Below, in pieces: positions 1,063 through 24,803 of a stretch of 48,752 nt of DNA; the stretch's first letter is position 1; each line of letters starts with the position of its first letter. The notes beneath the pieces were generated by a model. That model was not told the origin of the DNA, did no database searches, and saw only the letters and a list, made by a program, of their open reading frames with translations. The DNA is from Deltaproteobacteria bacterium (GTDB lineage Bacteria; Desulfobacterota; WTBG01; CAIYCZ01; CAIRTM01): contig JAJRXD010000050.1 of the NCBI GenBank assembly GCA_024276465.1, positions 1 to 48,752 on the forward strand. Direction: 5' to 3'. The translations under genes were made by a program, and so were the position numbers.

Positions 1063-3231
1063 ATGACATCTTCACTGATTAACTACAACAGGGCAGAAGT
1101 TACAAAGGGATATACTGACCAGCTGCTTGCAATTGACCTGAATAATAAAACAATATCTGTCAAGGTGATTTCAGAGGAGATGCGCCGTATGTTTGTTGGC
1201 GGAAGGGGGTACTGTTTAAAACTTGTATTTGACGGGACAAAAGCAACAACAAAACATGACAGTCCTGAAAATGTGCTGGCTATTTCAGGAGGACCTTTTT
1301 GCGGTGAAACCGGTTTTGCCGGTGCTGGAAAGTTTATTGTTGGAACGATTTCACCACTTACAAACACCTTCTGTGATTCAAACGTAGGCGGACATTTTTT
1401 TCCTCTTGTAAAACTATCAGGTTTTGATGCCATTTCGGTAACCGGCAAGACTGACCAGGATGTTCTCGTGGTCATAGACGGTGACCGATGCGAAATCAGT
1501 ATTGCAGATGCGCCTGAAACAGGAGATTCTTTGTTTGGTGCTGAGAATATTATTGAAAAGTGGAAAGGAGATGGTGAGCCATCTTCGGTTGCGTTTATAA
1601 GCGCAGGAACAGGGGCAAAGAATACATCCATGGGATGCATAAACAGTGTTTATTATGATCTCAGGCGTAAGAGGTGCAGGGCAAAACAGGCAGGCCGTGG
1701 AGGTACCGGATCTGTAATGCGTGACAAGGGTCTGTGGGGGATTGTTGTCAAATGTAATGCCAAAAAGGCAAACTCCAATCGGCCGGCACATCCAGACAGG
1801 GTCCGGGAAGCAGGGAAAAAGCTCAGAAAAGTTATCAAAGATGTTGACCCGAATGCAATGCGTCTTGGCACACAGGGAACAACATGCCTGGTGGACATGA
1901 TGAATTCCTTTCATCTCCTGCCGGTAAATAATTTCCAGTATGGTATTGACGATCGGGTAAAACAGGTGTCAGGTCTGCTTTTTGAAGAAAAGATTTTTGA
2001 GCAGAGACACCCTGATGGCTGTTTTTTAGGGTGCACTCTTGCATGTACAAAAGGTTGTGAGGATTATATATTAAAAACAGGGCCTTTTGCCGGAAAAACA
2101 ATCAGGCTTGATGGGCCTGAATATGAAACCGCAGCTGCCATGACCAATCTGGGAATATTTGACATTGACCACATTCTTGAATATGCATGGTACTGTGATG
2201 AGTATGGGCTTGACACTATCAGCGCAGGGGTTCTTATGTCTTTTCTGTTTGAGGCATATGAGCATGATTTGCTGACTGTTGAAGATACCGGAGGGCTTGA
2301 GCTGAAATGGAACTGTGGAAAAACAGTTCTTGAACTGCTTCACCGCATGGCAGCAGGGGAATGTGATTTTGCGGTTCAGGCTGGTCGTGGCGTACGCCAT
2401 ATGAAATGCTGGATTGCAGATCGTGCATCATCCCGCACCGGTCGGACCCGAAGCGATCTGCTTGGAGAGTTATCGCTTTTCGGTATGGAGTGCAAGGGCC
2501 TGGAATTTTCCATGTACATAACCAAAGAATCCCTGGCACAGCAGGGAGGCTACGGCTTTGCTCTTAAAGGACCTCAGCACGATGAGGCATGGCTGATTGC
2601 AATTGACCAGCTGAAAAATGAGCTGCCAACTTTTAAAAGAAAAGCTGTGGCACTGCAATGGTTTCCGCTTTTTCGTACCTGGTTCAATTTAGTGGGACTC
2701 TGCAAGCTGCCATGGATAGATGTCCGGCACCCGGAAGCGCAAAACACAGAACATCCGGCGAGAAATCTTCCAACAGTAGAGTACTATCTTGAACTTGTAA
2801 ATGCTACCTTTGGCACACAAAAGACCCTGGACGATCTTCTGATGGAATCCGAACGATCATATCTTCTTCACAAACTTATTAACCTGCGCCAGGGTTTCGG
2901 TACCCGTGAGCACGATGCAATCCCTCTTCGCGCCATGGCCCCTGTATTTATGAATGAATACAGGTCGCGCAAAAAACATTACGAGGAGTATCTGAAAAAC
3001 CAAGCGGAAGTTGACATTAATGGAAAAACCGATGAAGAATTGCTTAGCATTCTTCAGGAATATCGCCGTGTCCAGTATGACAGGCTGGCTGACGAGGTAT
3101 ATGATGAAAAGGGCTATGACCGTAACGCTGTGCCGCTTGATGAAACCCTGAACCGCCTCGGCTTTGACAAGGCGGAATATTTTGATATAGTACGATCTGC
3201 CCGCAACCAGGCTCAAAAACAGCAAAGATGA
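1063..3231 (+). CDS. Aldehyde:ferredoxin oxidoreductase family protein, long variant
   Basis: A 722-residue AOR-family enzyme. Family members carry a tungsten (or molybdenum) bis-pyranopterin cofactor and one [4Fe-4S] cluster and interconvert aldehydes and carboxylic acids with ferredoxin in the cytoplasm. The N-terminal AOR domain shows the FVGGRG motif near residue 45, and AGRGG-TGSVMRDKG near residue 210 corresponds to the family motif before the first linker. Probable cluster cysteines are C320, C324 and C328, with C547 in VGLCK as the fourth. The spacing C-x3-C-x3-C is one residue longer than the usual C-x2-C-x3-C seen in the second AOR of this window. It is also about 100 residues longer than that enzyme. 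The start has an AGGAG ribosome site. It sits alone behind a strong promoter, without a MoaD-like partner next to it. Substrate unknown. Confidence 0.9.
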   Translation: MTSSLINYNRAEVTKGYTDQLLAIDLNNKTISVKVISEEMRRMFVGGRGYCLKLVFDGTKATTKHDSPENVLAISGGPFCGETGFAGAGKFIVGTISPLTNTFCDSNVGGHFFPLVKLSGFDAISVTGKTDQDVLVVIDGDRCEISIADAPETGDSLFGAENIIEKWKGDGEPSSVAFISAGTGAKNTSMGCINSVYYDLRRKRCRAKQAGRGGTGSVMRDKGLWGIVVKCNAKKANSNRPAHPDRVREAGKKLRKVIKDVDPNAMRLGTQGTTCLVDMMNSFHLLPVNNFQYGIDDRVKQVSGLLFEEKIFEQRHPDGCFLGCTLACTKGCEDYILKTGPFAGKTIRLDGPEYETAAAMTNLGIFDIDHILEYAWYCDEYGLDTISAGVLMSFLFEAYEHDLLTVEDTGGLELKWNCGKTVLELLHRMAAGECDFAVQAGRGVRHMKCWIADRASSRTGRTRSDLLGELSLFGMECKGLEFSMYITKESLAQQGGYGFALKGPQHDEAWLIAIDQLKNELPTFKRKAVALQWFPLFRTWFNLVGLCKLPWIDVRHPEAQNTEHPARNLPTVEYYLELVNATFGTQKTLDDLLMESERSYLLHKLINLRQGFGTREHDAIPLRAMAPVFMNEYRSRKKHYEEYLKNQAEVDINGKTDEELLSILQEYRRVQYDRLADEVYDEKGYDRNAVPLDETLNRLGFDKAEYFDIVRSARNQAQKQQR

Positions 3232-3314
3232 AAAAGTCGTAAATTTATTGTATAGGAATTTCCTTTTTGCATTCTAAAGAATGTGGATGCCTGTGGTTGA
3301 TATGTTCAGTTGCT

Positions 3315-3338
3315 GGTAGCCGCAGACTTTAGCCTGCG
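3315..3338. repeat. Short dispersed intergenic repeat with imperfect hairpin
   Basis: A 24-base GGTAGCCGCAGACT...CTGCG element. A closely similar copy lies in inverted orientation at 37987-38010. Both are intergenic and each contains a short inverted repeat (CGCAGAC/GCCTGCG here). Probably a REP-like element; no function can be assigned. Confidence 0.55.
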
Positions 3339-3370
3339 TTAAGTTCATAAATTTTATTGAGGGAGGAAAA

Positions 3371-5407
3371 ATGAAAAAAAACAGATGTCTATCAACCAAA
3401 GCCATTACTCTTCTGTTCCTTTTGTTTTTTACAACCAGTGTCAGTGCAGATTACAAGTATGTATATCACGATCACGATGAAATTGTTGCCATAATTCAGG
3501 ACCTGGAAACCCAGTCCAACTCAAAAGCTGAAGACATTTTTCGTCTTGAAGAGATTGGATTAAGCTATCTTGGAAACCCTATCTATGCAGTAAAATTTTC
3601 AGACAACCCGGAAACAGAGGAAGATGGTGAACCGGATGTTGTTATTGATTCAGGTATTCATTCAAGAGAATGGTTGCCGGTGGACAGCAATATAACCTTT
3701 ATTCAGTATCTGTTTGATGCCTATTATGACAACAGCCATCATGACCATGGCGAAGTACAGGATCTTATCAATAATTTTGAAATCTGGATTATCCCCATGA
3801 TAAATCCGGATGGAAGGCTGAGGGATGATCAGAATGGCGGGGATCCCTACAGGTTCTGGACGGATACTGCTTATCATGATAATGATAACGAGGGGTGGCG
3901 CATGAATGTTCAGGAGGTTGACTGCCCCTCAAAACCCGGGGGTACAAACCTGGGCATTGATTTAAATCGAAGCTGGTCACGGAGATTCTGGGAGTTTTCC
4001 GACTGTGCTGTAACGGTTTACAGCGGAGGCGACAGGCCCTTTGTTCCCACTGAGACCAGGGTGCTCAAGCAGTTTATTAACAACCATATGATCAGTCTTG
4101 TTTTTCATCAGCACTCTGCCCTTAATATTTTATTCAGCAATTCTAAACAATCCGGCCTTGGTAATTATCTGACTGCTGAACTGGATGCTGTTTACGAAGA
4201 GAATGGACTTCCTGATCCTCTTCTGGCCCTTGAAAATGAGCTTGAAATGTCAGAAGGGGAACGCGTTAAGAAGTTGATGAAAAATTACCAGATCAGTCCC
4301 GGCAGTGAAAACTCAGAGCCTGCATGCAATGGTATGTTTATGACAGGGCAATATTATAACTGGCTCTGGTATGAAATTGACTGTCCCATCTCCTCTGATC
4401 ATGGATCAAGACGCGCTATTCAGGGTCTTTTCTGGGAATATCCCACCAATGAAGAAATTTATGGACACCCGGATGAGGGAAAAATAGGTCAGTTTGAACA
4501 GGGGGATTCATCAAACTACTTCCATCCCTCATCAGGCGAGGTAAATGAGTGGATTATTGGGCGGAGTATTGAAATGAACAAATATTTAATCAGGCAGTCT
4601 CAGTTTCCCTTCAGCCCACGCCATTATTCAGATATGTCTCCAAGACCCGAGGCTCCTGATACGGATTTAGCAATTGTTGGAGCAAAGATCAGCAAGCCAG
4701 GGGATGGACTTCCTGGTTGTTTTACTTATCGTGACAGTGATGCCAGAGACATACTTGAGTCAGGCCTTAAGAGAGTTACCTGGAATGTACAGAACAATGG
4801 TACCAGCCCGAGAATAATAACAACTGAGATTGCCATATGCAATCAGACTGATGACCCCAACTGCGCTAACCCGGTTACAGAATCAATAACAAGGCAGGAT
4901 GTGTCTTCTGAAACAATCCAAACCTTTACATATGATTATGTTTTTAAGCCTGAAAAGGATTATTCAGTTACACTTACCACTGGTGAGAGTAATGATTATG
5001 ATAATGATTTAAAAAGATATGTCTTTACAACAATCCCTTCCTCAGGTGATTGCCCGGCAGCTTTAATATCAGGTTATGCTCCTGATAAGATGAATCTGCT
5101 GAGGGGGTTCAGGGACAAGGTTCTGGCAAAGACTTCAACCGGTAAAGAATATATCCGCCTTTTCTATGAACACTCAGGGGAATTGACCGCAATATTTGCT
5201 GATAATCCACAGATCAGATTAGACGCTGAAGAAGTTTTAAATAAAATACTCCCGAACATTCTGTCCTCAATGCAAGATGCTACAATTGATATTAGTCGTG
5301 GCTTGAAAAAAGATTTAAAAAAACTGTCTGTTTCAATCAGCAGTAAGGCAAGCCCGGAGCTTAGGGAAGCTATTAATAATTTAACCCGGAAATTGCAGTC
5401 CCGCTGA
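3371..5407 (+). CDS. Secreted M14 family zinc carboxypeptidase
   Basis: A 678-residue secreted metallocarboxypeptidase. The first 26 residues are a Sec signal peptide ending near SVSA. The zinc site H97-S-R-E100 fits the M14 HxxE motif, with the third ligand in HQHS (probably H248); N199-R200 in IDLNRSW is the substrate-carboxylate-binding pair; E356 in FWEYP is the likely general base. After the catalytic domain comes a CARDB-like beta domain (about residues 430-555), then from C561 a region resembling the CFI-box-CTERM module (GFRDKVL, then RLFYEHS) but with a degenerate CFIATAA start. GGGAGG lies just before the ATG. The next gene is also a secreted hydrolase and starts 40 bases later, suggesting a shared transcript for extracellular degradation. 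Catalytic class is well supported; substrate is not known. Confidence 0.9.
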   Translation: MKKNRCLSTKAITLLFLLFFTTSVSADYKYVYHDHDEIVAIIQDLETQSNSKAEDIFRLEEIGLSYLGNPIYAVKFSDNPETEEDGEPDVVIDSGIHSREWLPVDSNITFIQYLFDAYYDNSHHDHGEVQDLINNFEIWIIPMINPDGRLRDDQNGGDPYRFWTDTAYHDNDNEGWRMNVQEVDCPSKPGGTNLGIDLNRSWSRRFWEFSDCAVTVYSGGDRPFVPTETRVLKQFINNHMISLVFHQHSALNILFSNSKQSGLGNYLTAELDAVYEENGLPDPLLALENELEMSEGERVKKLMKNYQISPGSENSEPACNGMFMTGQYYNWLWYEIDCPISSDHGSRRAIQGLFWEYPTNEEIYGHPDEGKIGQFEQGDSSNYFHPSSGEVNEWIIGRSIEMNKYLIRQSQFPFSPRHYSDMSPRPEAPDTDLAIVGAKISKPGDGLPGCFTYRDSDARDILESGLKRVTWNVQNNGTSPRIITTEIAICNQTDDPNCANPVTESITRQDVSSETIQTFTYDYVFKPEKDYSVTLTTGESNDYDNDLKRYVFTTIPSSGDCPAALISGYAPDKMNLLRGFRDKVLAKTSTGKEYIRLFYEHSGELTAIFADNPQIRLDAEEVLNKILPNILSSMQDATIDISRGLKKDLKKLSVSISSKASPELREAINNLTRKLQSR

Positions 5408-5417
5408 AATCGGGACT
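5397..5417. repeat. Hairpin spanning the carboxypeptidase stop codon
   Basis: AGTCCCG (5397-5403) and CGGGACT (5411-5417) are perfect inverted arms around a 7-base loop that contains the TGA stop. There is no T-tract, so it is more likely an mRNA-stabilising or attenuating hairpin than a terminator. Confidence 0.4.
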
Positions 5418-5447
5418 GAGGGGCAGTTCACTTGCGGAATTGTTATT

Positions 5448-6692
5448 ATGAAGAGATCTAATCGCCTTTTTGCTGTTTTTCTGATTTTTCTAATCTTTTT
5501 TTGTGCTCAAAAAAAACTTCTTGCCCGGGATTTTCCTGTCTCCATTATTGAAACCGGAAAAACCCCTGGTTTTGACCCGCCAACTCTGCGGCTTAATATG
5601 TTTTCCGTCCTGTTTCATTTTCTGCCTCTGTTGAATAACAACAGGTCCTTACAGGAACCTTTCCTGGTTAACGGGGATGAAAATCTTGGGGAAACCGGAA
5701 CCTCGGTTGATTTTAATTTCATGAAAGAGATTATTACCAGGGAGGTTACCTCCTTTAACCAGCTGATTGATCCTTATGATGACCCTGAAAACCCCTCTCC
5801 TGGATATACCTGGGATATGAAGATTTTTCACCCGGGTTCAGTCCCGGGACAGCTTTCACCTGATGAAAAACCCTATCCTGTCATTATCTTCTGTGTTGGT
5901 GCCCAGGGCTCTCATCCCAGCCATTCCGATGCGCTTGACTGGATGGGCACTTATTATGCCCGGAGGGGGTATCTGTTTGTTATCCCTGTTTTTATCGAAA
6001 ACTACTCAGAGATAATTGATGGGGAATCCAGACCAAACGAAGCATTTGAGTCTATTTCTGAAATCAGCACAGATATATATGCCCTGCAGGTCAGCCATAC
6101 AATTGATTACCTCAAACAGAGATTCAGCCTTTTTAACAGGCAGCCAGGGGTGCTGGACAGCGATCATGTGACTCTTATAGGACATTCCCTGGGAGGATAT
6201 GTGGCTCAAAAAGCAGCTGCTCAGGACAGTAGAATTTCAAGGCTCTGTCTTTTATCTTCAGTGTTTATCTACTATGGGGACTCCTGGGCAGGTTATCTTC
6301 TGGACACAAAAGATACCTGTGATTTGTTAAACAGACTGCCAAAACAGCGGGGAATGGCTCTCCATGTCCAGCGATTCACAAAACCACCATACAGTTTGCC
6401 CTGCCCTGACTGGGATCCGGAATGCGACTGGATCCCTCCTGTGGATGGTTTTATAACCCAGGTTGATCTTTCGCTGGATCCCTGGAAGCCGTACTTGTGT
6501 GAAGGGGTCAGCTGTGGTATCAGGGATGGAACGTACTACAACTACCTGCTTTATGAAGGGCCAAAACAGAATGAAATTAAAAACAATATTCTGGTTAATC
6601 ACAGCGGAATTACAAAAGATGATCCGGAAAATGATAAGGGAAAGCAGTTAACAGTTCAACTCATTGATGAATTTTTTGCCCGGTTTCCCTGA
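5448..6692 (+). CDS. Secreted alpha/beta hydrolase
   Basis: A 414-residue protein with a hydrophobic signal segment at residues 8-20 and a periplasmic or extracellular body. The nucleophile elbow GHSLGG places the catalytic serine at S247; the upstream strand PYPVIIFCVGAQGSHPSHS gives an oxyanion-hole region, and a late His in NHSGI near residue 385 is a plausible triad member. The fold is close to chlorophyllase/PET-hydrolase/dienelactone-type esterases. Several cysteines in the C-terminal third (about residues 345-375) may form disulfides after export. It follows the secreted carboxypeptidase gene by 40 bases on the same strand, so the two may act together on extracellular polymers. I see no clear Shine-Dalgarno sequence. 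Esterase class is likely; the true substrate cannot be read from the sequence. Confidence 0.85.
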   Translation: MKRSNRLFAVFLIFLIFFCAQKKLLARDFPVSIIETGKTPGFDPPTLRLNMFSVLFHFLPLLNNNRSLQEPFLVNGDENLGETGTSVDFNFMKEIITREVTSFNQLIDPYDDPENPSPGYTWDMKIFHPGSVPGQLSPDEKPYPVIIFCVGAQGSHPSHSDALDWMGTYYARRGYLFVIPVFIENYSEIIDGESRPNEAFESISEISTDIYALQVSHTIDYLKQRFSLFNRQPGVLDSDHVTLIGHSLGGYVAQKAAAQDSRISRLCLLSSVFIYYGDSWAGYLLDTKDTCDLLNRLPKQRGMALHVQRFTKPPYSLPCPDWDPECDWIPPVDGFITQVDLSLDPWKPYLCEGVSCGIRDGTYYNYLLYEGPKQNEIKNNILVNHSGITKDDPENDKGKQLTVQLIDEFFARFP

Positions 6693-14278: not shown

Positions 14279-16144
14279 TCAATTCCAGATATCTGCAATT
14301 GTATTTTCCAGGCCCAGTTCCTTCAGCTTGTCAGCAGTAGGCTTGCCGGAAGCCTTGTCCCATCCCCTCTCCTCATAATAGTGGTCCAGAAGTGTGTCCA
14401 GAGAATCAACAACATGACCTTTGGCAGGGCCCTCTGGCATGGGTTCCTTCATAAGCCTTCCGGGAAGAGTGTCATCAGCCCGTGAGAAGCCGTCCCGCAT
14501 GTTGAAAGCCCTGGCAAGATTTACCACCCTTTCACCGGTTTTTCTGAAATCTTCAATTGTAAACTCCAGGCCTGTAACATTTGCTATAAGGTTAACCCAT
14601 TCCTTTGCATCAAGCATAAGGCCCATAAACTTGCAGGTTCCGGTTACATCAAACATGGTCAGGGCATTCTCAAGATCATTAAGAACTTTGGTATCATGTG
14701 GTTTTGGTGAATAGACATCATCTATTTTACTGTCCTCAACAACTAAAAAGGGTGTGTCAATAAATGTCGGTCCCTGGATGTAACCTGTCATATGATCTCC
14801 TCCGCGGCTGGCTACAGCATAACCAAGGCCGGTTATTTTAACAGCTCTTGAATCATAGGCAGGCAGCTCCAGGCCTTTAACATGCATGGCAAATTCTTCA
14901 GATCCCTTCTTGAGTTTTTCAGACATCCTTTTAACACCTTCTGACAATAAGTCACCGATACCCTCTCTTTTGCCTATTTTTTCAGTGAGCTCAACCAGAA
15001 CATCAGCATCTCCAAATTTAATCTCAATGCCTCCGGTATCCTCTTTTGTCAGTATCCCCTTCTCATAACACTCCATGGCAAAAGCTATGATGCTTCCGGC
15101 TGAAATAGTGTCAATGCCATATTCATTACACAGGAAATTAGCCATTGTCACAGCATTCAAATCATCTACGTCACAGGCAGTGCCCAGAAGAACTACAGAC
15201 TCATATTCAGGCCCTTCACCTTCTTTGCCCGCCCATTTGCCTGTTTTAATCCTGGAAACCCTGCCGCAGGCAATGGGGCATGCATAACAGGCCACTCGGT
15301 CTTTAAGGAGGTTATCTGTAAGTGCCGGCCCGTTTACCTTTTCAACGTGTTCAAACATCCCGATCTGCCAGTTTCTTGTTGGCATGCCGCCCCTTACATT
15401 AACCATGTCAAGAAGAAGGTTTGTTCCGTGTGTCTCAAGTCCGACTTTCAGCATGGAATCATTAATCAGCTGATACTGCTTTTTCGCCACCTCCTTGAAA
15501 GCCTCCGGGTTGGCAATTTTAACCGGAATGCTGCCCTTGGCAGCTATGGCCTTCAGGTTTTTTGACCCCATAACAGCACCCAGCCCGCACCTTCCTGCAG
15601 CCCGGTGGGTATCGTTCATAATGCATGCAATCCTGACAAGCTTTTCTCCTGCAGGGCCGATGCATGCAACCTTGAAATCTTTGCCTAATTCCTCCTGAAT
15701 CAGGTCGGTTGTTTCCGGAACTTTTTTCCCCCAGAGATGCCCGGCATCTTTTAGCTCTGCTTTACCTTCTTCACATACAAGATAAACCGGTTTTGGGGAG
15801 GCGCCCTCAAATATTATACCGTCGAAACCGGTTCTTTTGAACTCAGGCCCCCAGAATCCTCCGGAGTTTGACTGTGCCCAGGCTCCGGTAAGAGGGGATT
15901 TGCTGACAACACTATATCTGCCTGCACTGGGGCAGGTTGTTGCGGTCAATGGGCCTGTCATGAAAATGAGTTTATTTTCAGGCCCTAAGGGGTCTGTACC
16001 TTTTTTTACTTCATCATAAAGATATTTGGTCGCCAGTCCGCCACCCCCAAGAAACATTCTGGCCATGCTTTCAGGAATTTCTTCCTCAGTTATTTTTGAT
16101 TCTGTTAAGTTAACTCTTAATATTTTTCCCATTAATCCGAACAT
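14279..16144 (-). CDS. Aldehyde:ferredoxin oxidoreductase (canonical length)
   Basis: A 621-residue AOR with the usual architecture. FLGGGGLATKYLYDE near residue 31 and RAAGRCGLGAVMGSKNLKAI near 181 bind the pyranopterin cofactor; C286-x2-C289-x3-C293 (CYACPIAC) and a late Cys in TGTCKF ligate the [4Fe-4S] cluster. The enzyme oxidises aldehydes to acids or runs in reverse with low-potential ferredoxin. It lies between a MoaD-like gene (81 bases upstream) and an acyl-CoA ligase gene, the typical neighbourhood of AORs dedicated to one acid/aldehyde pair. A GGGGGATGA site precedes the ATG. Tungsten is expected from the family but cannot be seen in the sequence. Confidence 0.93.
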   Translation of the reverse strand: MFGLMGKILRVNLTESKITEEEIPESMARMFLGGGGLATKYLYDEVKKGTDPLGPENKLIFMTGPLTATTCPSAGRYSVVSKSPLTGAWAQSNSGGFWGPEFKRTGFDGIIFEGASPKPVYLVCEEGKAELKDAGHLWGKKVPETTDLIQEELGKDFKVACIGPAGEKLVRIACIMNDTHRAAGRCGLGAVMGSKNLKAIAAKGSIPVKIANPEAFKEVAKKQYQLINDSMLKVGLETHGTNLLLDMVNVRGGMPTRNWQIGMFEHVEKVNGPALTDNLLKDRVACYACPIACGRVSRIKTGKWAGKEGEGPEYESVVLLGTACDVDDLNAVTMANFLCNEYGIDTISAGSIIAFAMECYEKGILTKEDTGGIEIKFGDADVLVELTEKIGKREGIGDLLSEGVKRMSEKLKKGSEEFAMHVKGLELPAYDSRAVKITGLGYAVASRGGDHMTGYIQGPTFIDTPFLVVEDSKIDDVYSPKPHDTKVLNDLENALTMFDVTGTCKFMGLMLDAKEWVNLIANVTGLEFTIEDFRKTGERVVNLARAFNMRDGFSRADDTLPGRLMKEPMPEGPAKGHVVDSLDTLLDHYYEERGWDKASGKPTADKLKELGLENTIADIWN

Positions 16145-16610: not shown

Positions 16611-18392
16611 TCACCTGCGTTTTTCAAGGCCGAACCTGGTAAAATCCCTTTCATGCAAACCCACATTAACCCTTACGTCCTCAATGGAAATAACAGTTTT
16701 GTAACCTGTTTGAACATTTTCTGCATTTGCCTTCTTCCAGAACCAGAAACCAAATTTTTTCTGCCACTCTATCCTGAGGGTTTTCCATGGATTTCCTTTT
16801 TTATCAAAATACTCTGTTTTTAAAGGTGTCCAGTTATTCTGGTCGATCCAGCTGACTCTTTTTCCATATTGCCTTCCCTCCTTAACAGGAGTACTTTCAA
16901 CCACAAAACAGTTGCAGCCATTATAGTCTTCCTTTTTTAAAAGAGTGTGCTTTTCCTCTCCAATATTTATTTCCACGTAATCAGTAAGACAAAAATCTGA
17001 CTCTGCCGGTGGTCTCAGACGCTCTGTGCTGGCAATTCTGCTTGCATCCCCATATTCCCTGCTGTACCAGAATGCTCTGTGCTTATTTTTATAGTTCAAG
17101 GTTAATATGGATGTCCCGTAATGAAACGGAGGATTAATATATTTTAAGATTTTTTTATTAATTACTCCTTTCCTGCCCTTAAAATCCTTCCATTTTTCAA
17201 GGGTCTTCATGGTATGTTTTCTGCCGGTCCTGCTGATCATTTCCCATGAGAGGGAAATAATATAGTCTTTTCCCCTGTCCCTTTGGCTGACCCTGGTCAT
17301 TATACTCAAACCATCCATCTTTTCGGGCGGAGCTTTTTCTTCCTTCAGCCAGGGTTTGTCTTTGACCTGCACCGGCTTTTTTACAGATGCTGTTTTTACG
17401 GGCACAGGCTCTTCACTGGCAGTATAAACTTTGTCCGGAATTTCCTTTTTTGTTTTGCCAGCCACTTTCTCCGGGACGATAATCATTGACCCGGCTAAAA
17501 GATCTTCCCTGTTTATAGTTTTTTGAGCAAAAAGGCTGACCTGATTTAAAGGGAAATAGTACTCTAACAGTATCTTCCTGTCTTTGTGAAAAAGGTGTTC
17601 TGATGATGAGATATCAAAACTGAAACCATTAATTTTGTCTTTTTTTGTGAAACGGCTGTCAAGGTAGAGCAGTAATCCTGATATGATATTATCAAAGAAC
17701 ATGTCAGATACTTCCCCTGAGGAAGCATCTAACCGGGAAAGATCATAACAGTAAATCAAACTTGTATGAAAATATTTTTTACCCTTTTTATCAGCAATAG
17801 ATGCAAAAAAGGTATAATCACCAAGGTTAATACTCCTGGTCTCAGGCAGCTTTTTTTTCAGCCTCCTTAATCTTAACCGGTATTTTAACAGGTCAAAGCC
17901 CTGTTTTTTATTAAGCTCCCTGTCTAACTGCCTTATTTCAAGTTCCTGCAGCCGCTCTTTTGCCAGCACTGCAAATATGCTCTCAGGATATTTTGAGAGA
18001 AACTCCCTGTAACCCCTGATGCTGTCTGTTTTTTCATAGTGCTTGATTTCAACCTGTTCGATGTTCCAGTTGGCTTTTGGAACATACCGGTTATTGGGAT
18101 ACCTCATCTTGAATTCCATATAACCTTCTATGGAATCTGTCTGCTCATAAGGGGCAAATTCCAGACCCTCAATCTTCGATTTGGCATCATTGACAAAGGT
18201 ATTTTCAGGATATTTCTCAATAAATTCTTTGTATCCCTCTATGGTATTTTGAAGTTTACAGGGCCTGTACTGTTCTTCCTGAATTTGATATTTTTTCAGA
18301 GCCATCTTGTCTTCATTAAAGATAAGCACACCACAGCCCTGCAAAAAAATAAAAAAACATGGTAATGTGAGACAAAAAAATTTTTTTAACAT
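16611..18392 (-). CDS. Lipoprotein with TPR-like repeats and LolA-like C-terminal domain
   Basis: A 593-residue lipoprotein: signal segment with lipobox LQGC (C20). Residues 45-155 hold three tandem helical repeats of about 37 residues (pattern T/S-IxGYxEFxxKYPxxxF), like those of BamD/YbgF-type proteins. A middle region (about 160-310) is unassigned and a charged proline-rich linker follows. From about residue 358 the sequence resembles the outer-membrane-lipoprotein-sorting-protein family (LolA_like, PF17131): GLSIM near its start, YGKRVSWIDQNNWTPLKTEYF, then VQTGYKTVISIEDVRVN and a FTRF end. In other genomes that domain usually accompanies RND/MMPL lipid exporters. Here it is the last gene of the ExbB-ExbD operon, 3 bases after the TPR gene. 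A role in accepting or moving a lipid or lipoprotein in the periplasm is inferred. Confidence 0.82.
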   Translation of the reverse strand: MLKKFFCLTLPCFFIFLQGCGVLIFNEDKMALKKYQIQEEQYRPCKLQNTIEGYKEFIEKYPENTFVNDAKSKIEGLEFAPYEQTDSIEGYMEFKMRYPNNRYVPKANWNIEQVEIKHYEKTDSIRGYREFLSKYPESIFAVLAKERLQELEIRQLDRELNKKQGFDLLKYRLRLRRLKKKLPETRSINLGDYTFFASIADKKGKKYFHTSLIYCYDLSRLDASSGEVSDMFFDNIISGLLLYLDSRFTKKDKINGFSFDISSSEHLFHKDRKILLEYYFPLNQVSLFAQKTINREDLLAGSMIIVPEKVAGKTKKEIPDKVYTASEEPVPVKTASVKKPVQVKDKPWLKEEKAPPEKMDGLSIMTRVSQRDRGKDYIISLSWEMISRTGRKHTMKTLEKWKDFKGRKGVINKKILKYINPPFHYGTSILTLNYKNKHRAFWYSREYGDASRIASTERLRPPAESDFCLTDYVEINIGEEKHTLLKKEDYNGCNCFVVESTPVKEGRQYGKRVSWIDQNNWTPLKTEYFDKKGNPWKTLRIEWQKKFGFWFWKKANAENVQTGYKTVISIEDVRVNVGLHERDFTRFGLEKRR

Positions 18393-18395
18393 TTA

Positions 18396-20882
18396 TTAAT
18401 CCCCATCTCCTTCACAAATATCCTTTTGAAGCTGTATAAATTTTTCCCTGAATTTTTTATCTCTGAGTTCAGGGTGCAGTACCTGCATTACAGTAATAAC
18501 CTCACATGCCTTATCCCTTTTGCCTATTTGATCAAGCACCACGGCAGTCCTGTATCTTGATTCAAACCAGTAATAGCTGCCTGTCTTTAATCCCCTGGAA
18601 AACTTTTTCCAGCTTGCAAGGGCCTCTTCCCACTTTCCCTGCTTTTCCTGGATCAGGCCGAGATTATATATTGCATCAGCAGACAGGGGATCTCTATTCA
18701 ACTTTTCCCGGTAAATTTTTTCCCCTTTTTCCAATTGATTTTCATCCAGATAAATTTCAGCCATCCTGAGCTGGATGGAATCATGGAACTTATTGAATTC
18801 TGGATTTGTTGCGGCAACAGGGGAAAGCCTGTTATATATCATGAGCGCCATCTCTGCCTGTCTGTGAGCCAGGCTGGTGTTCCCATTATCCCTTGATCTT
18901 TTTGATTCCTGATAAAACCTGGCTGCACATGCATTCAGAAAACCCCAGCGCTTCTGGTTTATGACACCCTTGTTAAGCACCATGTTGATTTCCTCCTCTG
19001 CTTCCGAAAACATCTGCAGTTTCTGGTAGCAGAGCATACGCAAATTCATTGCCGTGAAGGAAAGCCGGCCACTGTTTTTTTTAGATTGGAAACGGGCATC
19101 AAAATCATTAAGAGCCCCAAGTGCTTTTCTGCAGGTTTCTTCCGGTCCATAAGCATACAGCCTTGCCCGAAGGATTGTCAAATGGGCTTCCAGTTCTTTT
19201 TTGCCTGTGTCATCTTTTTCTTTTAGAACAATGTCCTGATATTTTTCAAGAGCTTTTATGGTATTATCATATACTCTTTTTGCAGCTTTTGACTGACTGA
19301 GACCCGTGGAATGAAAGGTTTCAAGCTTATCCATGTTTGCTTTTATAACACAGTACTGTGCTTCCATATAATTTGGAGAATCATCTTTAACAAGAGAAAA
19401 TTCGCCAAGAGCTTTTCTTTCCCTGCCTTTGTCCTGATAGTATTTACCTAACTGAAAATGTGCTTCGCTCTCATCCGAAGGATCTGGACAGTGCTGCAGA
19501 TAGGTTTTTATTGAGTTTATATACCGGGTATATGTGTCTGTTTCAGGGTTTTCCCTGTAATTGTTTGCTGCTGCTACAAAGTTTAAACAGGCTGTTTTGC
19601 CTAAAAAAGGGGATGAGGGAAAAATCTTAAAAATGGATTCAAAGCAGGAAAAAGCCTTCTGCCACTGACCTTTCCGGCAGAAACAGTAACCCAGCCGAAA
19701 AAAGATCTCATCCATGCGTTTTTTAATCAGGCGGCCGGAAGATGCACGGAGATGTCCGTAACGCTCAATAGCTTTGTCATACTCTTTTCTGTTAAAGTAC
19801 CAGTCTGCTATTGCCAGGTTTCCGACATGTCCCAGCTCTGCATAGGGCATGTCGACAAGTATTGGGACATGGTCTTTTGCAAACCGGTAAAGTTCCCCGG
19901 CCTGGCTTTCCTTGCTTTCAGTCAGGCGCTTCATCTCCTGCAGGATTTCCAGAACAAATTTTTTCGCAGTTTTTCCCTGTTTGTTTTTCTCCTTTTCTAA
20001 AAGGGCAAGGATGATCTTAATACGTAGTTTTTTTAGTCCAATATCCATCTCCCTGGAGATTTCTGCTCCCTTGAAATCCATCTGGAAGTTGTCGACCTTT
20101 TTCAATGCTGCTTCATAATGCCCTGTCAGGCAGGTGATCATTATTTTTTCATATCTGCACCGTACGGACAAAGCACTGCCCTGCTTAAGCATATTTGAAA
20201 CGGAATTAAGGTCCTGTATTGCTTTGTCATATTTTTGCATCTCCCTGTAACAGAGCGCGCGGCCGAAAAGGCTCCTGCTGACAATAGATTCCTCATTGAA
20301 ATCGATAAATGAACGGGAAAATCCCTCAACTGCCTCATCAAGCAGATCCCCCCGAAAGGGATCATTTGCAGGATAGAACAGGCAGCTGTAATATGCAGTC
20401 CAGCTCAACCAGTAACTGGCCAGGGATATCAGGTGCTGGGGCTGCTGCCATTCAGGGGATGCAAAAAATGTGTCGGTGTCCTGCATATGATCGAGTTCAT
20501 TTTCCTGCAGATACAAAACCTTTTTCTGATTCCACAGAAGAATTTCTTTAACAACCTGCCTGCCTGTTAACAGCAGGGCCCGGGCAGTTTCTGTCTTTGT
20601 TTTGTAAGGCTGTTCAGATCCCTGTTCTAAAATTATTATTTTGCTGACACACTCCCCTGTCTTTGAGAGCACAAGTTTTTGCAGGCTGAACGGAAACCGG
20701 TTTTTTGTCCTGGCCTCTTTGCTGCAGGACTTAAGCAGAGCCAGCGCTGTTTTCATCCTGTCAAATGAGCTGATTTCATCAACCCGCAGTCCTTTAACTG
20801 CACCTGGCAGAGAAGAAGCTTCTGCTGTTGGACAAGCACAATAAAATATTATAAAAAACAGAAGGCTGAACGCTGATTTCAT
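18396..20882 (-). CDS. Exported large TPR-repeat protein
   Basis: An 828-residue protein made almost wholly of tetratricopeptide-type helical hairpins (for example GNLAIADWYFNRKEYDKAIERY, AHFQLGKYYQDKGRERKALGEF and AIYNLGLIQEKQGKWEEAL). The start at 20882 is chosen over 20930 because it forms an ATGA overlap with the upstream ExbD stop and gives a clean N-terminal signal segment (KSAFSLLFFIIFYCACPT) ending near AEASS. The protein is therefore probably periplasmic, or lipid-anchored through one of the cysteines near residue 15-18. TPR proteins scaffold complexes; here it likely links the inner-membrane ExbB-ExbD motor to the lipoprotein encoded 3 bases downstream. No enzymatic motif is visible. 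Confidence 0.85.
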   Translation of the reverse strand: MKSAFSLLFFIIFYCACPTAEASSLPGAVKGLRVDEISSFDRMKTALALLKSCSKEARTKNRFPFSLQKLVLSKTGECVSKIIILEQGSEQPYKTKTETARALLLTGRQVVKEILLWNQKKVLYLQENELDHMQDTDTFFASPEWQQPQHLISLASYWLSWTAYYSCLFYPANDPFRGDLLDEAVEGFSRSFIDFNEESIVSRSLFGRALCYREMQKYDKAIQDLNSVSNMLKQGSALSVRCRYEKIMITCLTGHYEAALKKVDNFQMDFKGAEISREMDIGLKKLRIKIILALLEKEKNKQGKTAKKFVLEILQEMKRLTESKESQAGELYRFAKDHVPILVDMPYAELGHVGNLAIADWYFNRKEYDKAIERYGHLRASSGRLIKKRMDEIFFRLGYCFCRKGQWQKAFSCFESIFKIFPSSPFLGKTACLNFVAAANNYRENPETDTYTRYINSIKTYLQHCPDPSDESEAHFQLGKYYQDKGRERKALGEFSLVKDDSPNYMEAQYCVIKANMDKLETFHSTGLSQSKAAKRVYDNTIKALEKYQDIVLKEKDDTGKKELEAHLTILRARLYAYGPEETCRKALGALNDFDARFQSKKNSGRLSFTAMNLRMLCYQKLQMFSEAEEEINMVLNKGVINQKRWGFLNACAARFYQESKRSRDNGNTSLAHRQAEMALMIYNRLSPVAATNPEFNKFHDSIQLRMAEIYLDENQLEKGEKIYREKLNRDPLSADAIYNLGLIQEKQGKWEEALASWKKFSRGLKTGSYYWFESRYRTAVVLDQIGKRDKACEVITVMQVLHPELRDKKFREKFIQLQKDICEGDGD

Positions 20883-21310
20883 GTTTGTGAAATGGCAAAA
20901 ACCATGTTTTTCTTTTTTGATTTTATGCATGTATTGTAGATTCCGATTACATGCTTGTAAGGGACCTTAGGTTCCGGTTCAATCACTATCAGGATCTCTT
21001 CGGGAAGCAGGTTCAGATAGTTCAATAGCTCCTTATAGCTATATACCACCCTGTCCTGCAGGTAAATCTTAAGCATCTCCCCATCTGCAACAAGTTTTAT
21101 CCGCAGCCGGACCACTTCCCAGTCCATTTGCTGATCTGAAACATCCTGTCCCACACGCTCCGGGAGCCTGTTCTCTAAAACGCTTTCAGGCTTCTGAAAC
21201 TTGAGGGTCATGATGAAAAAGATCAGCAGAAGGAAAATAACATCAATCAAAGGTGTCATCTTGATCGATAAAATAGACTTGCTGTCTGTTTCTTTAGCGG
21301 GAAGCTTCAT
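20879..21310 (-). CDS. ExbD/TolR family protein, second copy
   Basis: A 143-residue single-pass protein with cytoplasmic N-terminus, the membrane helix MTPLIDVIFLLLIFFIM carrying the essential proton-path aspartate (D23), and a periplasmic domain that ends in the ExbD pattern (VIEPEPKVPYKHVIGIYNTC). ExbD works with ExbB to couple proton flow to movement of a TonB-like partner. It overlaps the preceding exbD by 17 bases and the following TPR gene by 4, so it is translationally coupled. The periplasmic domain is clearly different from that of the first copy, consistent with a hetero-dimeric ExbD pair. Confidence 0.92.
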   Translation of the reverse strand: MKLPAKETDSKSILSIKMTPLIDVIFLLLIFFIMTLKFQKPESVLENRLPERVGQDVSDQQMDWEVVRLRIKLVADGEMLKIYLQDRVVYSYKELLNYLNLLPEEILIVIEPEPKVPYKHVIGIYNTCIKSKKKNMVFAISQT

Positions 21311-21749
21311 TGCTTATATCCTTTTCAATTGAAGACAGGTTTCCCCTGAGTGCTGAGAATTCAATGCGTGTGATGCCAGAGGAGGCTATCTTCTCCATTA
21401 CTTTCTGAACCGTACTGTAAGGGACATTCTCGTCTCCGCGGATCTGAACAGTACATTTTTCAGGATGAGGAATTTTCTACATGAGAGCACTGTCTATATT
21501 ATCCAGTTCAACCCTTTTTCTGCCTACAACAATAAAATCCTCTGATTTTACTGTTACGGATATCTTTTTTATTGTATTTTCAGCACTTTTTTTAGCTTCA
21601 TCAGCCTTTGGAAGCACCACATTCCTGATGAGAACATCAGAGAAATTAATCATCATAATGAAAAAGATGATAATAAGAAAAACCACATCGATCAGAGGGG
21701 TCATATTAACCATAAGTGAAGACCACGGTCTTTTTCTATAGGTGCGCAT
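21294..21749 (-). CDS. ExbD/TolR family protein interrupted by an in-frame TAG
   Basis: The first exbD of the operon. From ATG 21749 (GGAG eight bases upstream; a GTG at 21755 would sit too close to it) it encodes the MTPLIDVVFLIIIFFIM helix with the conserved Asp and most of the periplasmic domain, then meets TAG at 21479-21477 (codon 91). Beyond it the same frame continues without another stop for 60 codons to TAA at 21296-21294 and contains the typical ExbD ending: CTVQIRGDENVPYSTVQKVMEKI, then GITRIEFSA (in part). The 17-base overlap with the next start also fits the longer form. So the gene either carries a nonsense mutation, probably CAG or TGG to TAG, or reads TAG as pyrrolysine. A truncated product would lose the end of the periplasmic domain. 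Confidence 0.8.
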
Positions 21750-21751
21750 TA

Positions 21752-22561
21752 TCACTTCTCCCGGCTGTCCGGTTTAAACGGAATCATGAGCTCCTCAGCG
21801 GCAAGTGATGCCTCTCCTGTGAATTCATCGATGCGGTTTCGAAAAATGGCGTAAAAGTAAAGAGAAGGTATTGCAACTATTAAACCCATACAGGTTGTAA
21901 CCAGAGCTTCAAAAATACCCCCTGCCAGCTGTTTTGGTTCGATAGTGCCTGTTACCTGGGATATTTCATTGAAGCAGCGAAGCATACCGATCACTGTTCC
22001 TAAAAGCCCTAACATCGGGGAGATGTTACCGATAACATTTAAATGTTCAATTTTACGGGCTATGCCTGCGCTGAATGCTTCTCCTGCATCTTCCACTGCT
22101 TTGATAATAGCTTCATAACCAAGATTAGCCTCTTTTATTCCGGCAATGACAATGTGGGCAAGAAATGAGGTTTTGTCCTGATCCAGCTTTTTGATCTCTT
22201 CAAACTTGTGATCATTAATAAGTTTCCTGAGAACAGTTATATCACGCAGGGGGGCAAGTTTTGATCTCCTGATTGTCAATGCATAGTCTATCACAAGACC
22301 CGTGGCAACAAATGAAAGCAAAATTATTAAATACCCTACAATTCCTCCTTTATTAATAAGCTGAAGAATACTCATTCCTTTGGCGACATCATCTTCAACT
22401 AAAACCCCTTCTTCCCGGGAAGAGACTTCTCCAGGGGTTTTTTCCCCGGATACGATATCTCCCCTGTTTTCCTCCTGGGCCAGACACACTCCTCCTGAAA
22501 ACAACAATGATGCAAAAAATAAAATCCCAAGTGCCTTGATGAAATATCTGTTTCTAAACAT
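21752..22561 (-). CDS. ExbB/TolQ/MotA-type proton channel protein
   Basis: A 269-residue ExbB homologue. It has an N-terminal signal-like segment and an acidic periplasmic stretch (residues 25-65) absent from TolQ, then a first membrane helix (GIVGYLIILLSFVATGLVIDY), a cytoplasmic loop, and the highly conserved pair of helices with NISPMLGLLGTVIGM and GGIFEALVTTCMGLIVAIPSLYFY. ExbB pentamers hold the ExbD dimer and convert proton flow into motion. It lies between the vWA protein gene (78 bases) and the first exbD (near overlap, TGATAATG). The operon contains no conventional TonB or TonB-dependent receptor. Confidence 0.93.
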   Translation of the reverse strand: MFRNRYFIKALGILFFASLLFSGGVCLAQEENRGDIVSGEKTPGEVSSREEGVLVEDDVAKGMSILQLINKGGIVGYLIILLSFVATGLVIDYALTIRRSKLAPLRDITVLRKLINDHKFEEIKKLDQDKTSFLAHIVIAGIKEANLGYEAIIKAVEDAGEAFSAGIARKIEHLNVIGNISPMLGLLGTVIGMLRCFNEISQVTGTIEPKQLAGGIFEALVTTCMGLIVAIPSLYFYAIFRNRIDEFTGEASLAAEELMIPFKPDSREK

Positions 22562-22639
22562 GTTATTATCTCCTGTCCCGGATTAGCCGGGATCAAAAAA
22601 AGATTTTTGTTTTGCGAACAGCAATTCACTAATTAATAT

Positions 22640-23728
22640 TTACAGATTCTTTAAAAATTCATCCAGACATGCCTCCCACCTTGTTCCAAAAACAAGCACC
22701 ACCATCTGTCTGATTACTTTTTCCTCATCTATTAAACGTGCACTTTCCCCTCCTCCCAGATCAGCAAAGATCCTGAATTCCTCCAGCACCTCTTTACCTT
22801 CGTCATCTGATCCATAATTTCCTTCCAGTGGTTTAAGGGACTGGTAGCTGGTGTCAAGGGCAGTAACCACCCCGCCCATTTTATTTCTGAATTTCTTAAT
22901 TAAATTACGGGTTTTTTCCAGGTCCCTTTTATGGGGCGGGGCATCGCCAATCAGGAGGATAATTTTCTTTGATTTTTTTTTCCAGTTAAGTTCATCAACA
23001 GCAACCCTTAAAGCTTCATCCACAGCCTCTTCCCAGTCCCCCCCACCAACAGGATCAATTTCACGTAAGAAATTTTGCAGTGACCTTGTTCCATGAGTAA
23101 GCTTGTGAACTTTGGTCACAAAGTCTTCTCCTGCATCCCGGTATGTAACAAGCCCTATTCTTGCAGTGGGCACCAGTTTTTTGAAGGTAGCGACCATATT
23201 TGTTATTTTGATCTTAACCTGTCTTAAAAACTGTGCCATGCTGCTTGTCGAGTCGAAAACAAAAACAATATCAAGCCCTCCCTCGCGCAACAGCTGTATG
23301 TGCCTTGTAAAAGATCCTGCAAGCTTTTCCTCTCCAGTATAAAGGGGCTGCCGGCCTGTGGAGGGATTAAGCCATTTCTGGCTCATGACTTCAACCCCTA
23401 TAAGATTCAGCTCTTCCCGTATCTTTGGCTCAGGGTAAAATTTAACATCCGGCAATACAGGGTGATATTCAATTTCAGGAAGGGGATAAACCATCCGGTC
23501 TTTTGTCCTGAATTTGTCCAGATTGTCTTTTTCCTGAAACCTCATATGTTCTTCCTTTTTGCCGTGAAGCATAATTCTTGCAGCAGGGTCATACACAGTT
23601 CTTTTTTTCATGGGAACATACCATGTTAAATAAGCAAACAGTAAAAGGATGAGTGTATGGATAAGAAACGACAGTGAAAACGGGGAGAAGCGTCTGATCA
23701 AAAGCCATATCTTTTCTGTAAACCTCAT
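22640..23728 (-). CDS. TonB-like anchored von Willebrand factor A domain protein
   Basis: A 362-residue protein with one N-terminal transmembrane helix and a periplasmic body. The N-terminus reads RRF at 12-14, then LSFLIH, giving S20-x3-H24 inside the helix, the same Ser/His arrangement that in TonB and TolA is needed for coupling to ExbB-ExbD. After a linker rich in P, E and Y (about 60-120), a vWA domain spans about 150-345: metal-ion-dependent adhesion site D159-x-T-x-S163, VTYRD near 195 and GGGDWEEAVDEAL near 228. There is no TonB C-terminal domain. As first gene of the ExbB-ExbD-ExbD-TPR-lipoprotein operon it is the obvious energised partner. vWA domains bind proteins in a metal-dependent manner; the ligand here is unknown. 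Confidence 0.88.
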   Translation of the reverse strand: MRFTEKIWLLIRRFSPFSLSFLIHTLILLLFAYLTWYVPMKKRTVYDPAARIMLHGKKEEHMRFQEKDNLDKFRTKDRMVYPLPEIEYHPVLPDVKFYPEPKIREELNLIGVEVMSQKWLNPSTGRQPLYTGEEKLAGSFTRHIQLLREGGLDIVFVFDSTSSMAQFLRQVKIKITNMVATFKKLVPTARIGLVTYRDAGEDFVTKVHKLTHGTRSLQNFLREIDPVGGGDWEEAVDEALRVAVDELNWKKKSKKIILLIGDAPPHKRDLEKTRNLIKKFRNKMGGVVTALDTSYQSLKPLEGNYGSDDEGKEVLEEFRIFADLGGGESARLIDEEKVIRQMVVLVFGTRWEACLDEFLKNL

Positions 23729-23820: not shown

Positions 23821-23882
23821 GTTGCTGGTTACGAGTTGCGTGTTAAAAACAGCCTTTAAACCTGCAACCCGCAACGCGCAAC
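23821..23882. repeat. Dispersed intergenic repeat (GTTGC...GCAAC family)
   Basis: A 62-base element bounded by GTTGC and GCAAC, with internal inverted segments. The stretch starting GGTTACGAGTTGCGTG (23827) recurs nearly exactly at 37802, and the CAACCCGCAAC part resembles the hairpin at 12443-12487. A 70-codon frame over it (23731-23943) is not a credible gene. The rest of the 217-base gap holds only the possible promoter. Confidence 0.55.
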
Positions 23883-23945: not shown

Positions 23946-24803
23946 CTATTGTTTTACTTCAACACCCCTTTTATATAACATCTTTTGCTTTAGCCGGCCT
24001 CTCTCATCAAACAACCTGGTTATACCTTCAAGCTCATCGTCTTTATAGTTCTGCTCAATCCATATTTTTCCGGCCTCGTTATACCTCCTTGTTATTCCGT
24101 TTTTAAGGCCGTTTTTATAGTTGGTCACCCTCCTTAATCTGCCGTTCTCATAATAAACTTTCCCTGTCCCCTCCTTTGTATTGTTCCTGTATTCCATCTC
24201 CTCCTTCAGGGTGCTGTCCCAGTAATATAATCTGGTTATACCATCCTGCTTTCCATCCCTGTATTTTTTTTCTGCCTTTAAAATACCATCATCGTAATAG
24301 CATTTTCCCACCCCTTCCAGTTTTCCGTTCTTGTAATAATAATCCTCCTTCAAATGTCCATTCCAGAAAAAGAGTTTCTTCCTGTTTGGTTCACCGTTAT
24401 TAAATTCAATCTCTTTCTTTAGTGTTCCGCCCTTAAAATACCATCGGGCCTTACCGTCCATTTTACCATATTTGTAATTTACCTTTTCTTTCAACATGCC
24501 GTCATGAGAATACAATATGCATATGCCATGCTGTTTCCCCCTTTTGTATTTATAGTCTTTTTTTATCTGTCCATTCATGTAATAAACTTTGCATTCTCCC
24601 TCTTTTTCTCCATTTGTATAATTGCATTCTGACTCTAATTTTCCATTTTCATAATATGTTTTTGAGATACCATCAAGCTTTCCATTATTATAGCTCAGTT
24701 CCTGCATCAACCTGCCATTAGGCCAGTATTGTCTTTTTACCGATACGCTGCAGCCGCAAAATGCTAACACCATAAAAACTATGACTGCTTTACCTGTGTT
24801 CAT
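23946..24803 (-). CDS. MORN-repeat (YwqK-like) lipoprotein
   Basis: A 285-residue protein with a short signal segment and lipobox FCGC (C18). The rest consists of eleven tandem units of about 24 residues with the pattern Y-x-x-G-x-L-x-x-E-x-x-Y-x-x-G-K-x-x-G, the MORN_2 repeat of YwqK-type proteins. Such repeats form an elongated beta sheet; YwqK homologues are often labelled antitoxins but a general role is not established. No toxin gene is adjacent. It lies 217 bases upstream of the vWA operon on the same strand, with a possible promoter in between, so it may be co-regulated but not clearly part of that operon. An outer-membrane or periplasmic location is inferred from the lipobox. Confidence 0.87.
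   Translation of the reverse strand: MNTGKAVIVFMVLAFCGCSVSVKRQYWPNGRLMQELSYNNGKLDGISKTYYENGKLESECNYTNGEKEGECKVYYMNGQIKKDYKYKRGKQHGICILYSHDGMLKEKVNYKYGKMDGKARWYFKGGTLKKEIEFNNGEPNRKKLFFWNGHLKEDYYYKNGKLEGVGKCYYDDGILKAEKKYRDGKQDGITRLYYWDSTLKEEMEYRNNTKEGTGKVYYENGRLRRVTNYKNGLKNGITRRYNEAGKIWIEQNYKDDELEGITRLFDERGRLKQKMLYKRGVEVKQ

Follow-up and report, generated by a model that had tools for sequence, protein, structure and literature searches.

A predicted vWA force-transducer operon with a LolA-like lipoprotein in a deltaproteobacterial genome

Contig JAJRXD010000050.1 of the Deltaproteobacteria assembly GCA_024276465.1 carries on its minus strand a run of closely packed genes in which a von Willebrand factor A (vWA) protein is combined with ExbB- and ExbD-type motor subunits, an exported TPR protein and a predicted outer-membrane lipoprotein. 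The window denotes the whole 48,752-nucleotide stretch of this contig, and all coordinates refer to it. An earlier note, made from the sequence alone, had described six of these genes as a candidate new energised envelope machine. The genes are as follows:

22640..23728, minus strand: predicted vWA force transducer, 362 aa (Pfam VWA_4/VWA)
21752..22561, minus strand: ExbB/TolQ-type proton-channel subunit, 269 aa (Pfam MotA_ExbB, 1e-27)
21297..21755, minus strand: first ExbD/TolR subunit (ExbD1), split by an in-frame TAG; open reading frame (ORF) as called 21477-21755, 92 aa (Pfam ExbD over the first 92 aa)
20879..21310, minus strand: second ExbD/TolR subunit (ExbD2), 143 aa, intact (Pfam ExbD, 1.5e-16)
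18396..20930, minus strand: exported TPR protein, 844 aa as called (Pfam TPR families)
16611..18392, minus strand: predicted outer-membrane lipoprotein, 593 aa (Pfam LolA_like, PF17131, 7e-35)
23946..24803, minus strand: MORN-repeat lipoprotein, 285 aa, likely accessory (Pfam MORN_2, 1.7e-37)

A gap of 78 bases separates the vWA and ExbB genes, ExbB and ExbD1 meet in an overlap or a gap of a few bases, ExbD1 and ExbD2 overlap by 14 bases provided that ExbD1 is read through its TAG, and 3 bases lie between the TPR and lipoprotein genes. The true start of the TPR protein is likely an internal ATG at 20882 that overlaps the ExbD2 stop, and use of this methionine turns the ExbD2-TPR junction into an ATGA overlap. 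The packing of six minus-strand genes in the earlier note is supported by coordinates, Pfam matches and tight junctions, but the note overlooked the TAG that splits the ExbD1 frame and left out the MORN lipoprotein gene directly upstream, which may belong to the operon. The two genes share a strand and are 217 bases apart; homologues of the MORN gene are frequent neighbors of such loci and directly follow the TPR gene in L066, L068 and L070.

Searches with profiles built here turned up more than 20 loci, one of them from a planctomycete, in which a vWA gene stands beside ExbB and either one or two ExbD genes; a TPR gene follows or adjoins the vWA-motor genes in most of them. This recurrence puts the gene arrangement far beyond chance, and the operon is real and conserved. 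We then surveyed 395 genomes of the phylum, counting vWA homologues as close at E <1e-160 and TPR homologues as close at E <1e-40. Close vWA homologues occurred in 11 genomes, and close TPR homologues in exactly the same 11 and no others. Weaker TPR matches occurred in seven further genomes, every one of which also has a weaker vWA match. Since members of a single clade are not independent samples, we attach no probability to this co-occurrence. The gene-neighborhood check in Desulfobacterota that had been suggested thus gave a recurrent arrangement, and a failure of the homologues to co-occur, which had been named as fatal to the idea, is not what we found.

Within the vWA protein, the N-terminal transmembrane helix carries a TonB-type anchor, SFLIH, at residues 20-24 (S20-xxx-H24), followed by a disordered linker (~41-132) and a vWA domain (~150-350) with a DxTxSM metal ion-dependent adhesion site (MIDAS) motif. 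Alignment of 17 homologues, with identities down to 31%, revealed that S20 and H24 are invariant, as are the MIDAS residues D159, T161, S163 and M164, which bears out the anchor that had been read from the sequence. The S-xxx-H pair is present in nearly all of the wider vWA homologues found and absent from three contrast vWA proteins outside such operons (L046, L047 and L048). Among named genomes, an alignment query recovered relatives where a query with the single protein gave none. S-xxx-H is part of the SHLS motif that docks TonB and TolA to their motors, according to Williams-Jones et al. (2025, Mol Biol Evol 42:msaf138; PMC12204202). The AlphaFold2 model of the vWA protein (mean predicted local distance difference test score, pLDDT, 64.7) has a helix at 16-37, a segment with pLDDT <50 at 41-139 and then a vWA fold. 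Its closest matches in the PDB are vWA domains, with BatB first, followed by capillary morphogenesis protein 2 and integrins.

The TonB-type anchor might place the operon as a Ton variant that energizes a receptor encoded elsewhere, and the genome does encode four TonB-dependent receptors. The vWA protein, however, has no Pfam match to TonB_C, the periplasmic partners differ, and the genome has three TonB_C proteins, one of them on contig C1 with ExbB and a receptor. Because separate TonB_C proteins are encoded in the genome, the receptors have transducers of their own, and we regard a Ton variant as highly improbable. Pfam scans of the operon genes and the main surrounding ORFs also returned no TonB_C, TolA, TolB, Pal or receptor gene in the stretch, in agreement with the earlier note.

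Two side observations concern distant or damaged members. The planctomycete vWA proteins of L071 and L073-L101 are mostly about 560-800 aa long, and most have S-xxx-H roughly 100-180 residues ahead of the vWA domain, so that the anchor sits behind an N-terminal extension. For most of them, our own profiles found no ExbB/ExbD or TPR gene near the vWA gene within the stretch examined. In L070, from a Desulfonema limicola metagenome-assembled genome, the vWA and TPR genes (3016-6624, plus strand) are both broken by apparent frame shifts.

The motor subunits belong to the ExbB and ExbD families but lie far from their curated members. ExbB scored 57 bits against the NCBIfam exbB model (cut-off 206) and 73.6 bits against tolQ (cut-off 221), while the ExbD models gave at most 27 bits and the two ExbDs reached 27 and 23.8 bits against tolR (cut-off 127). 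The transmembrane aspartate of ExbD2 lies within TPLIDVIF, and this residue is kept in nearly all of the ExbD copies listed, the exception being the first ExbD of G014 (PLINVIF). Phylogenetic trees of vWA and TPR agree in their main groups, whereas ExbB splits into separate types. UBA5616 and KR11 illustrate this: as sisters they share 59% identity in vWA, 54% in TPR and 50% in MORN, yet only 32% in ExbB, and the UBA5616 ExbB is 71% identical to that of G013. Monophyly of ExbB in the UBA5616/KR11 group was rejected by an approximately unbiased (AU) test (p = 1e-7, 261 log-likelihood units), for a group chosen after the trees had been seen and with long branches present. Since the vWA and TPR trees agree while the ExbB tree differs, we conclude that vWA and TPR are inherited as a unit with a replaced motor; the motor is exchangeable.

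The frame of ExbD1 stops after 92 codons at a TAG (21477-21479, codon 93). Read through, the frame reaches a TAA in the 21297 region, keeps the ExbD C-terminus and aligns with full-length relatives, whose codons at or near the TAG site are CGT, GAG, CAG, GCC, ACC and ATA, with no fixed residue. We consider recoding by pyrrolysine unlikely, since conserved genes of the window use TAG as an ordinary stop and no pyrrolysyl-tRNA synthetase scored above cut-off in the genome. With the aligned residue also varying, we rejected pyrrolysine and other recoding of this codon. The same two observations, ordinary use of TAG elsewhere and no pyrrolysyl-tRNA synthetase, lead us to consider the TAG a nonsense mutation or a base error. 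The operon could accordingly be decaying in this genome, with the TAG a real null and the machine non-functional, as the in-frame stop and the lack of detected recoding machinery would suggest. Against this, ExbD2 and the other operon genes are intact, a good ExbD C-terminus follows the TAG, and it is as likely that the stop arose recently or is a base error of this 181-contig assembly. Loci with a single ExbD are also common (G006, G007, G009, G010, G034, G071, G363 and G106). Because several loci have one ExbD, a pair is not required and a broken ExbD1 need not disable the machine; decay appears improbable. The many single-ExbD loci also led us to reject a rule of two ExbDs.

The lipoprotein has an LQGC lipobox whose Cys20 is invariant in six homologues. 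Its predicted parts are BamD/CpoB-like helical repeats (~34-181), an alpha/beta region (~185-305), a low-confidence linker and a LolA/DUF1329-like domain (~413-590). The last matches LolA_like PF17131 at 120.8 bits (cut-off 30); Foldseek related the C-terminal fold to DUF1329 structures 4z48 and 3bk5, and a VIA Z of 8.5 over 78 residues related it to LolA3. As pLDDT is <50 at 309-478 and 542-593, this fold assignment draws mainly on Pfam and the well-modeled strands at 480-541. The N-terminal half has fold matches to BamD and YbgF, with NCBIfam similarity to BamD/YbgF, and parts of the TPR protein likewise resemble YbgF/CpoB and BamD. The lipoprotein gene follows TPR, or TPR-MORN, in seven loci (the window, G002, G006, G008, G009, G010 and L070) and lies on another contig in G013. 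Comparison of these homologues revealed that residues 1 to ~310 form the conserved part. The LolA/DUF1329-like domain is found in the window, G002, G006, G008 and G013. We therefore rejected the LolA-like lipoprotein as the conserved part, since its N-terminal half is conserved and its LolA half swappable. Across genomes, 117 match the lipoprotein query, most via the LolA-like domain; the domain alone is common. As a side observation, the G010 lipoprotein, which lacks the LolA domain, is followed by a fusion of a trypsin-like protease with TPR repeats (L040:6744-7763, plus strand).

The resemblances to YbgF/CpoB and BamD, in the N-terminal half of the lipoprotein and in parts of the TPR protein, are what would be expected of a Tol-Pal-like system, in which the vWA arm would pull the CpoB/BamD-like lipoprotein and the TPR protein, holding or remodeling the outer membrane and peptidoglycan, with LolA as an adaptor. 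Conservation of the N-terminal half rather than the LolA domain, and a motor of one ExbB with TolR-like subunits, would fit as well. The operon nevertheless encodes no TolB or Pal, its ExbB and ExbDs fall far below the TolQ/TolR cut-offs, and a patchy spread, with 11 close cases in 395 genomes, is ill-suited to an essential envelope role. We consider this explanation rather unlikely.

Several neighboring genes are suggestive of hydrophobe export. Stand-alone LolA-like relatives lie directly after an MMPL pump gene in this genome (G000, C140) and in G002 (C200), and in other genomes such relatives stand beside DUF1302 or MMPL genes. Loci of the machine itself adjoin DUF1329 genes in G002, a DUF1302 gene in G008 and MMPL in G014. 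In G014 (L037:1-3054, plus strand) the C-terminal part of an MMPL/RND protein reads in frame into vWA in a 1017-aa open frame. The metagenome contig is short, and the two genes could be genuinely fused or have lost the stop codon between them. The scanned ORFs of the window included no RND/MMPL pump or DUF1302 porin. We did not retain a tight linkage to MMPL, DUF1302 or DUF1329 genes as more than suggestive, as these families are abundant.

Two further features of the window concern its other sequences. Between the MORN and vWA genes lie two imperfect copies of GTTGCGGGTTGC (23864-23882, minus strand), close to a stretch that is roughly complementary to them; a search of the window allowing one mismatch gave no further copy of the motif. 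The window also holds two aldehyde:ferredoxin oxidoreductase (AOR) genes (14279-16144, minus strand, and 1063-3231, plus strand). An AOR-type gene also lies upstream of vWA in L041, L044 has matches as well, and L069 probably has such a gene; the recurrence may mean no more than that AOR genes are abundant in these genomes.

Beside the gene content, conservation, motif invariance and motor exchange established above, we infer force transduction, partner contacts and a hydrophobic cargo. The initial steps of the proposed mechanism are those that the sequence supports. An ExbB-type pentamer and an ExbD-type dimer would use the proton gradient of the inner membrane, the S-xxx-H helix of vWA would dock laterally on ExbB in the manner of TonB and TolA, the flexible linker of ~100 residues would span the periplasm, and the vWA domain would hold its partner through the MIDAS face. 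That partner would be the periplasmic TPR protein, linked in this lineage to the outer-membrane lipoprotein. Pulling cycles might then load, unload or reposition a hydrophobe in the LolA/DUF1329-like pocket of the lipoprotein, so that the machine would contribute to the movement of a lipid or another hydrophobe at the outer membrane, perhaps alongside AmeABCD-type RND (MMPL) pumps. The invariant anchor and the co-occurrence of the genes across genomes support the earlier proposal, in outline, that an ExbB-ExbD motor drives a vWA arm whose partners are the TPR protein and the lipoprotein.

Our confidence differs along this chain. From its motifs and gene content, the operon very probably encodes a proton-driven force transducer of the vWA class. 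The TPR protein is the probable direct partner of vWA, and the lipoprotein is a reasonably likely outer-membrane partner. A lipid or hydrophobe as cargo, drawn from association, is a tentative suggestion. That the vWA arm mechanically drives a LolA-type carrier lipoprotein in proton-driven transfer of a lipid or hydrophobe, with coupling to an RND hydrophobe pump in certain genomes, is doubtful. For the whole chain, with the cargo included as a leading guess only, we estimate a probability of roughly 55%.

Several observations weigh against this chain. ExbD1 is broken in this very genome. We found no copy of the lipoprotein in G017, G056 or G091; in G009 and G010 it has no LolA domain, and in L070 that domain is replaced by a different one with a weak PF21423 match. 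Because the lipoprotein and its LolA domain are patchy, hydrophobe handling cannot be what the machine does in every genome. The pump families are also numerous, with 19 DUF1329 matches in G002 and 22 MMPL matches in G014, and this abundance means that the adjacency of pump genes may be due to chance. The paired ExbDs and the LolA-like domain, which the earlier note took as hallmarks, are thus present here but not general, and its guess of lipid transport is possible on the basis of association.

The class to which the operon is assigned was recognized recently: next to TonB and TolA, vWA force transducers make up a third branch. The lineage with a LolA/DUF1329-like lipoprotein provides a first concrete guess at a cargo. 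If correct, mechanical force would power outer-membrane lipid transfer, a process usually ascribed to ABC/RND pumps or passive flow. The analysis also singles out the parts of the machine, namely a co-inherited vWA-TPR pair, an exchangeable motor and a modular lipoprotein. The modular lipoprotein and the vWA/TPR co-inheritance turn an orphan class into hypotheses that can be tested.

Comparison with known systems begins with Ton and Tol-Pal, which share the motor families and the anchor motif of the transducer. Here vWA replaces the C-terminal domain of TonB/TolA, the operon encodes no receptor, TolB or Pal, and, unlike those of Ton and Tol-Pal, its motor subunits lie far below the curated TolQ/ExbB cut-offs. 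We conclude that the operon belongs to neither the Ton nor the Tol systems. An anti-phage role, as for Zorya and other MotAB-like motors, was rejected after PADLOC returned no match for the six proteins.

In the Agl-Glt gliding system of Myxococcus, AglR-AglQ-AglS comprise one ExbB-like and two ExbD-like subunits, CglB is a vWA adhesin, and TPR proteins also take part. The window shares the one-plus-two subunit composition and the presence of TPR and vWA proteins, and its MORN protein is weakly similar to an adhesin family, so the motor might drive the vWA protein against the outer membrane in gliding or surface adhesion. The vWA protein here is, however, predicted to be anchored in the inner membrane and bound to the motor, with a linker of only ~100 residues, rather than being an outer-membrane lipoprotein, and many loci have one ExbD. 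Among the operon proteins we found no Glt component except a TPR-level match to GltE (20.5 bits, cut-off 225), the rest of the genome lying outside this search. PMC12204202 does suggest a gliding link for the vWA class; for this operon we judge an Agl-Glt analogue quite improbable.

The AmeABCD system of Castellaniella (DUF1302, DUF1329, YCF48 and HAE3 RND) exports apolar compounds (PMC6394551). Its DUF1329/LolA superfamily is that of the C-terminal domain of the lipoprotein, and in three genomes a component of this kind lies next to the machine. The systems differ in that an RND pump and DUF1302 were not seen in the window, where the motor is of ExbB/ExbD type.

The closest system is the class of SHLS-anchored vWA force transducers, published as new in June 2025 (PMC12204202, Fig. 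4a-b). Its core, as given in that paper, groups a vWA transducer with a TolQ-like gene, a TolR-like pair and a TPR gene, with no function assigned there. A literature search, with most subscription papers outside it, found this core described nowhere else. The earlier note was therefore mistaken in knowing of no system with this composition; its concern that the operon might prove a known Tol/TonB variant falls away with respect to Ton and Tol but finds a counterpart in this known core. Both the published class and the window have an S/H anchor on a single helix, a disordered linker of ~100 residues and a C-terminal vWA domain, with adjoining TolQ-like, paired TolR-like and TPR genes, although the first TolR-like gene here carries the TAG. 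For possible kinship with the published members of the Planctomycetes-Verrucomicrobia-Chlamydiae (PVC) group, the comparison covered the planctomycete locus L072, which has the full vWA, ExbB, ExbD, ExbD and TPR set; its vWA protein shares 31% identity with that of the window, and its ExbB matches at 44%. Beyond the core as described there, the window adds a LolA/DUF1329-like outer-membrane lipoprotein and a MORN lipoprotein, and motor exchange and single-ExbD versions are found here. We conclude that the locus is a lineage-specific extension of the published vWA core and not an undescribed machine.

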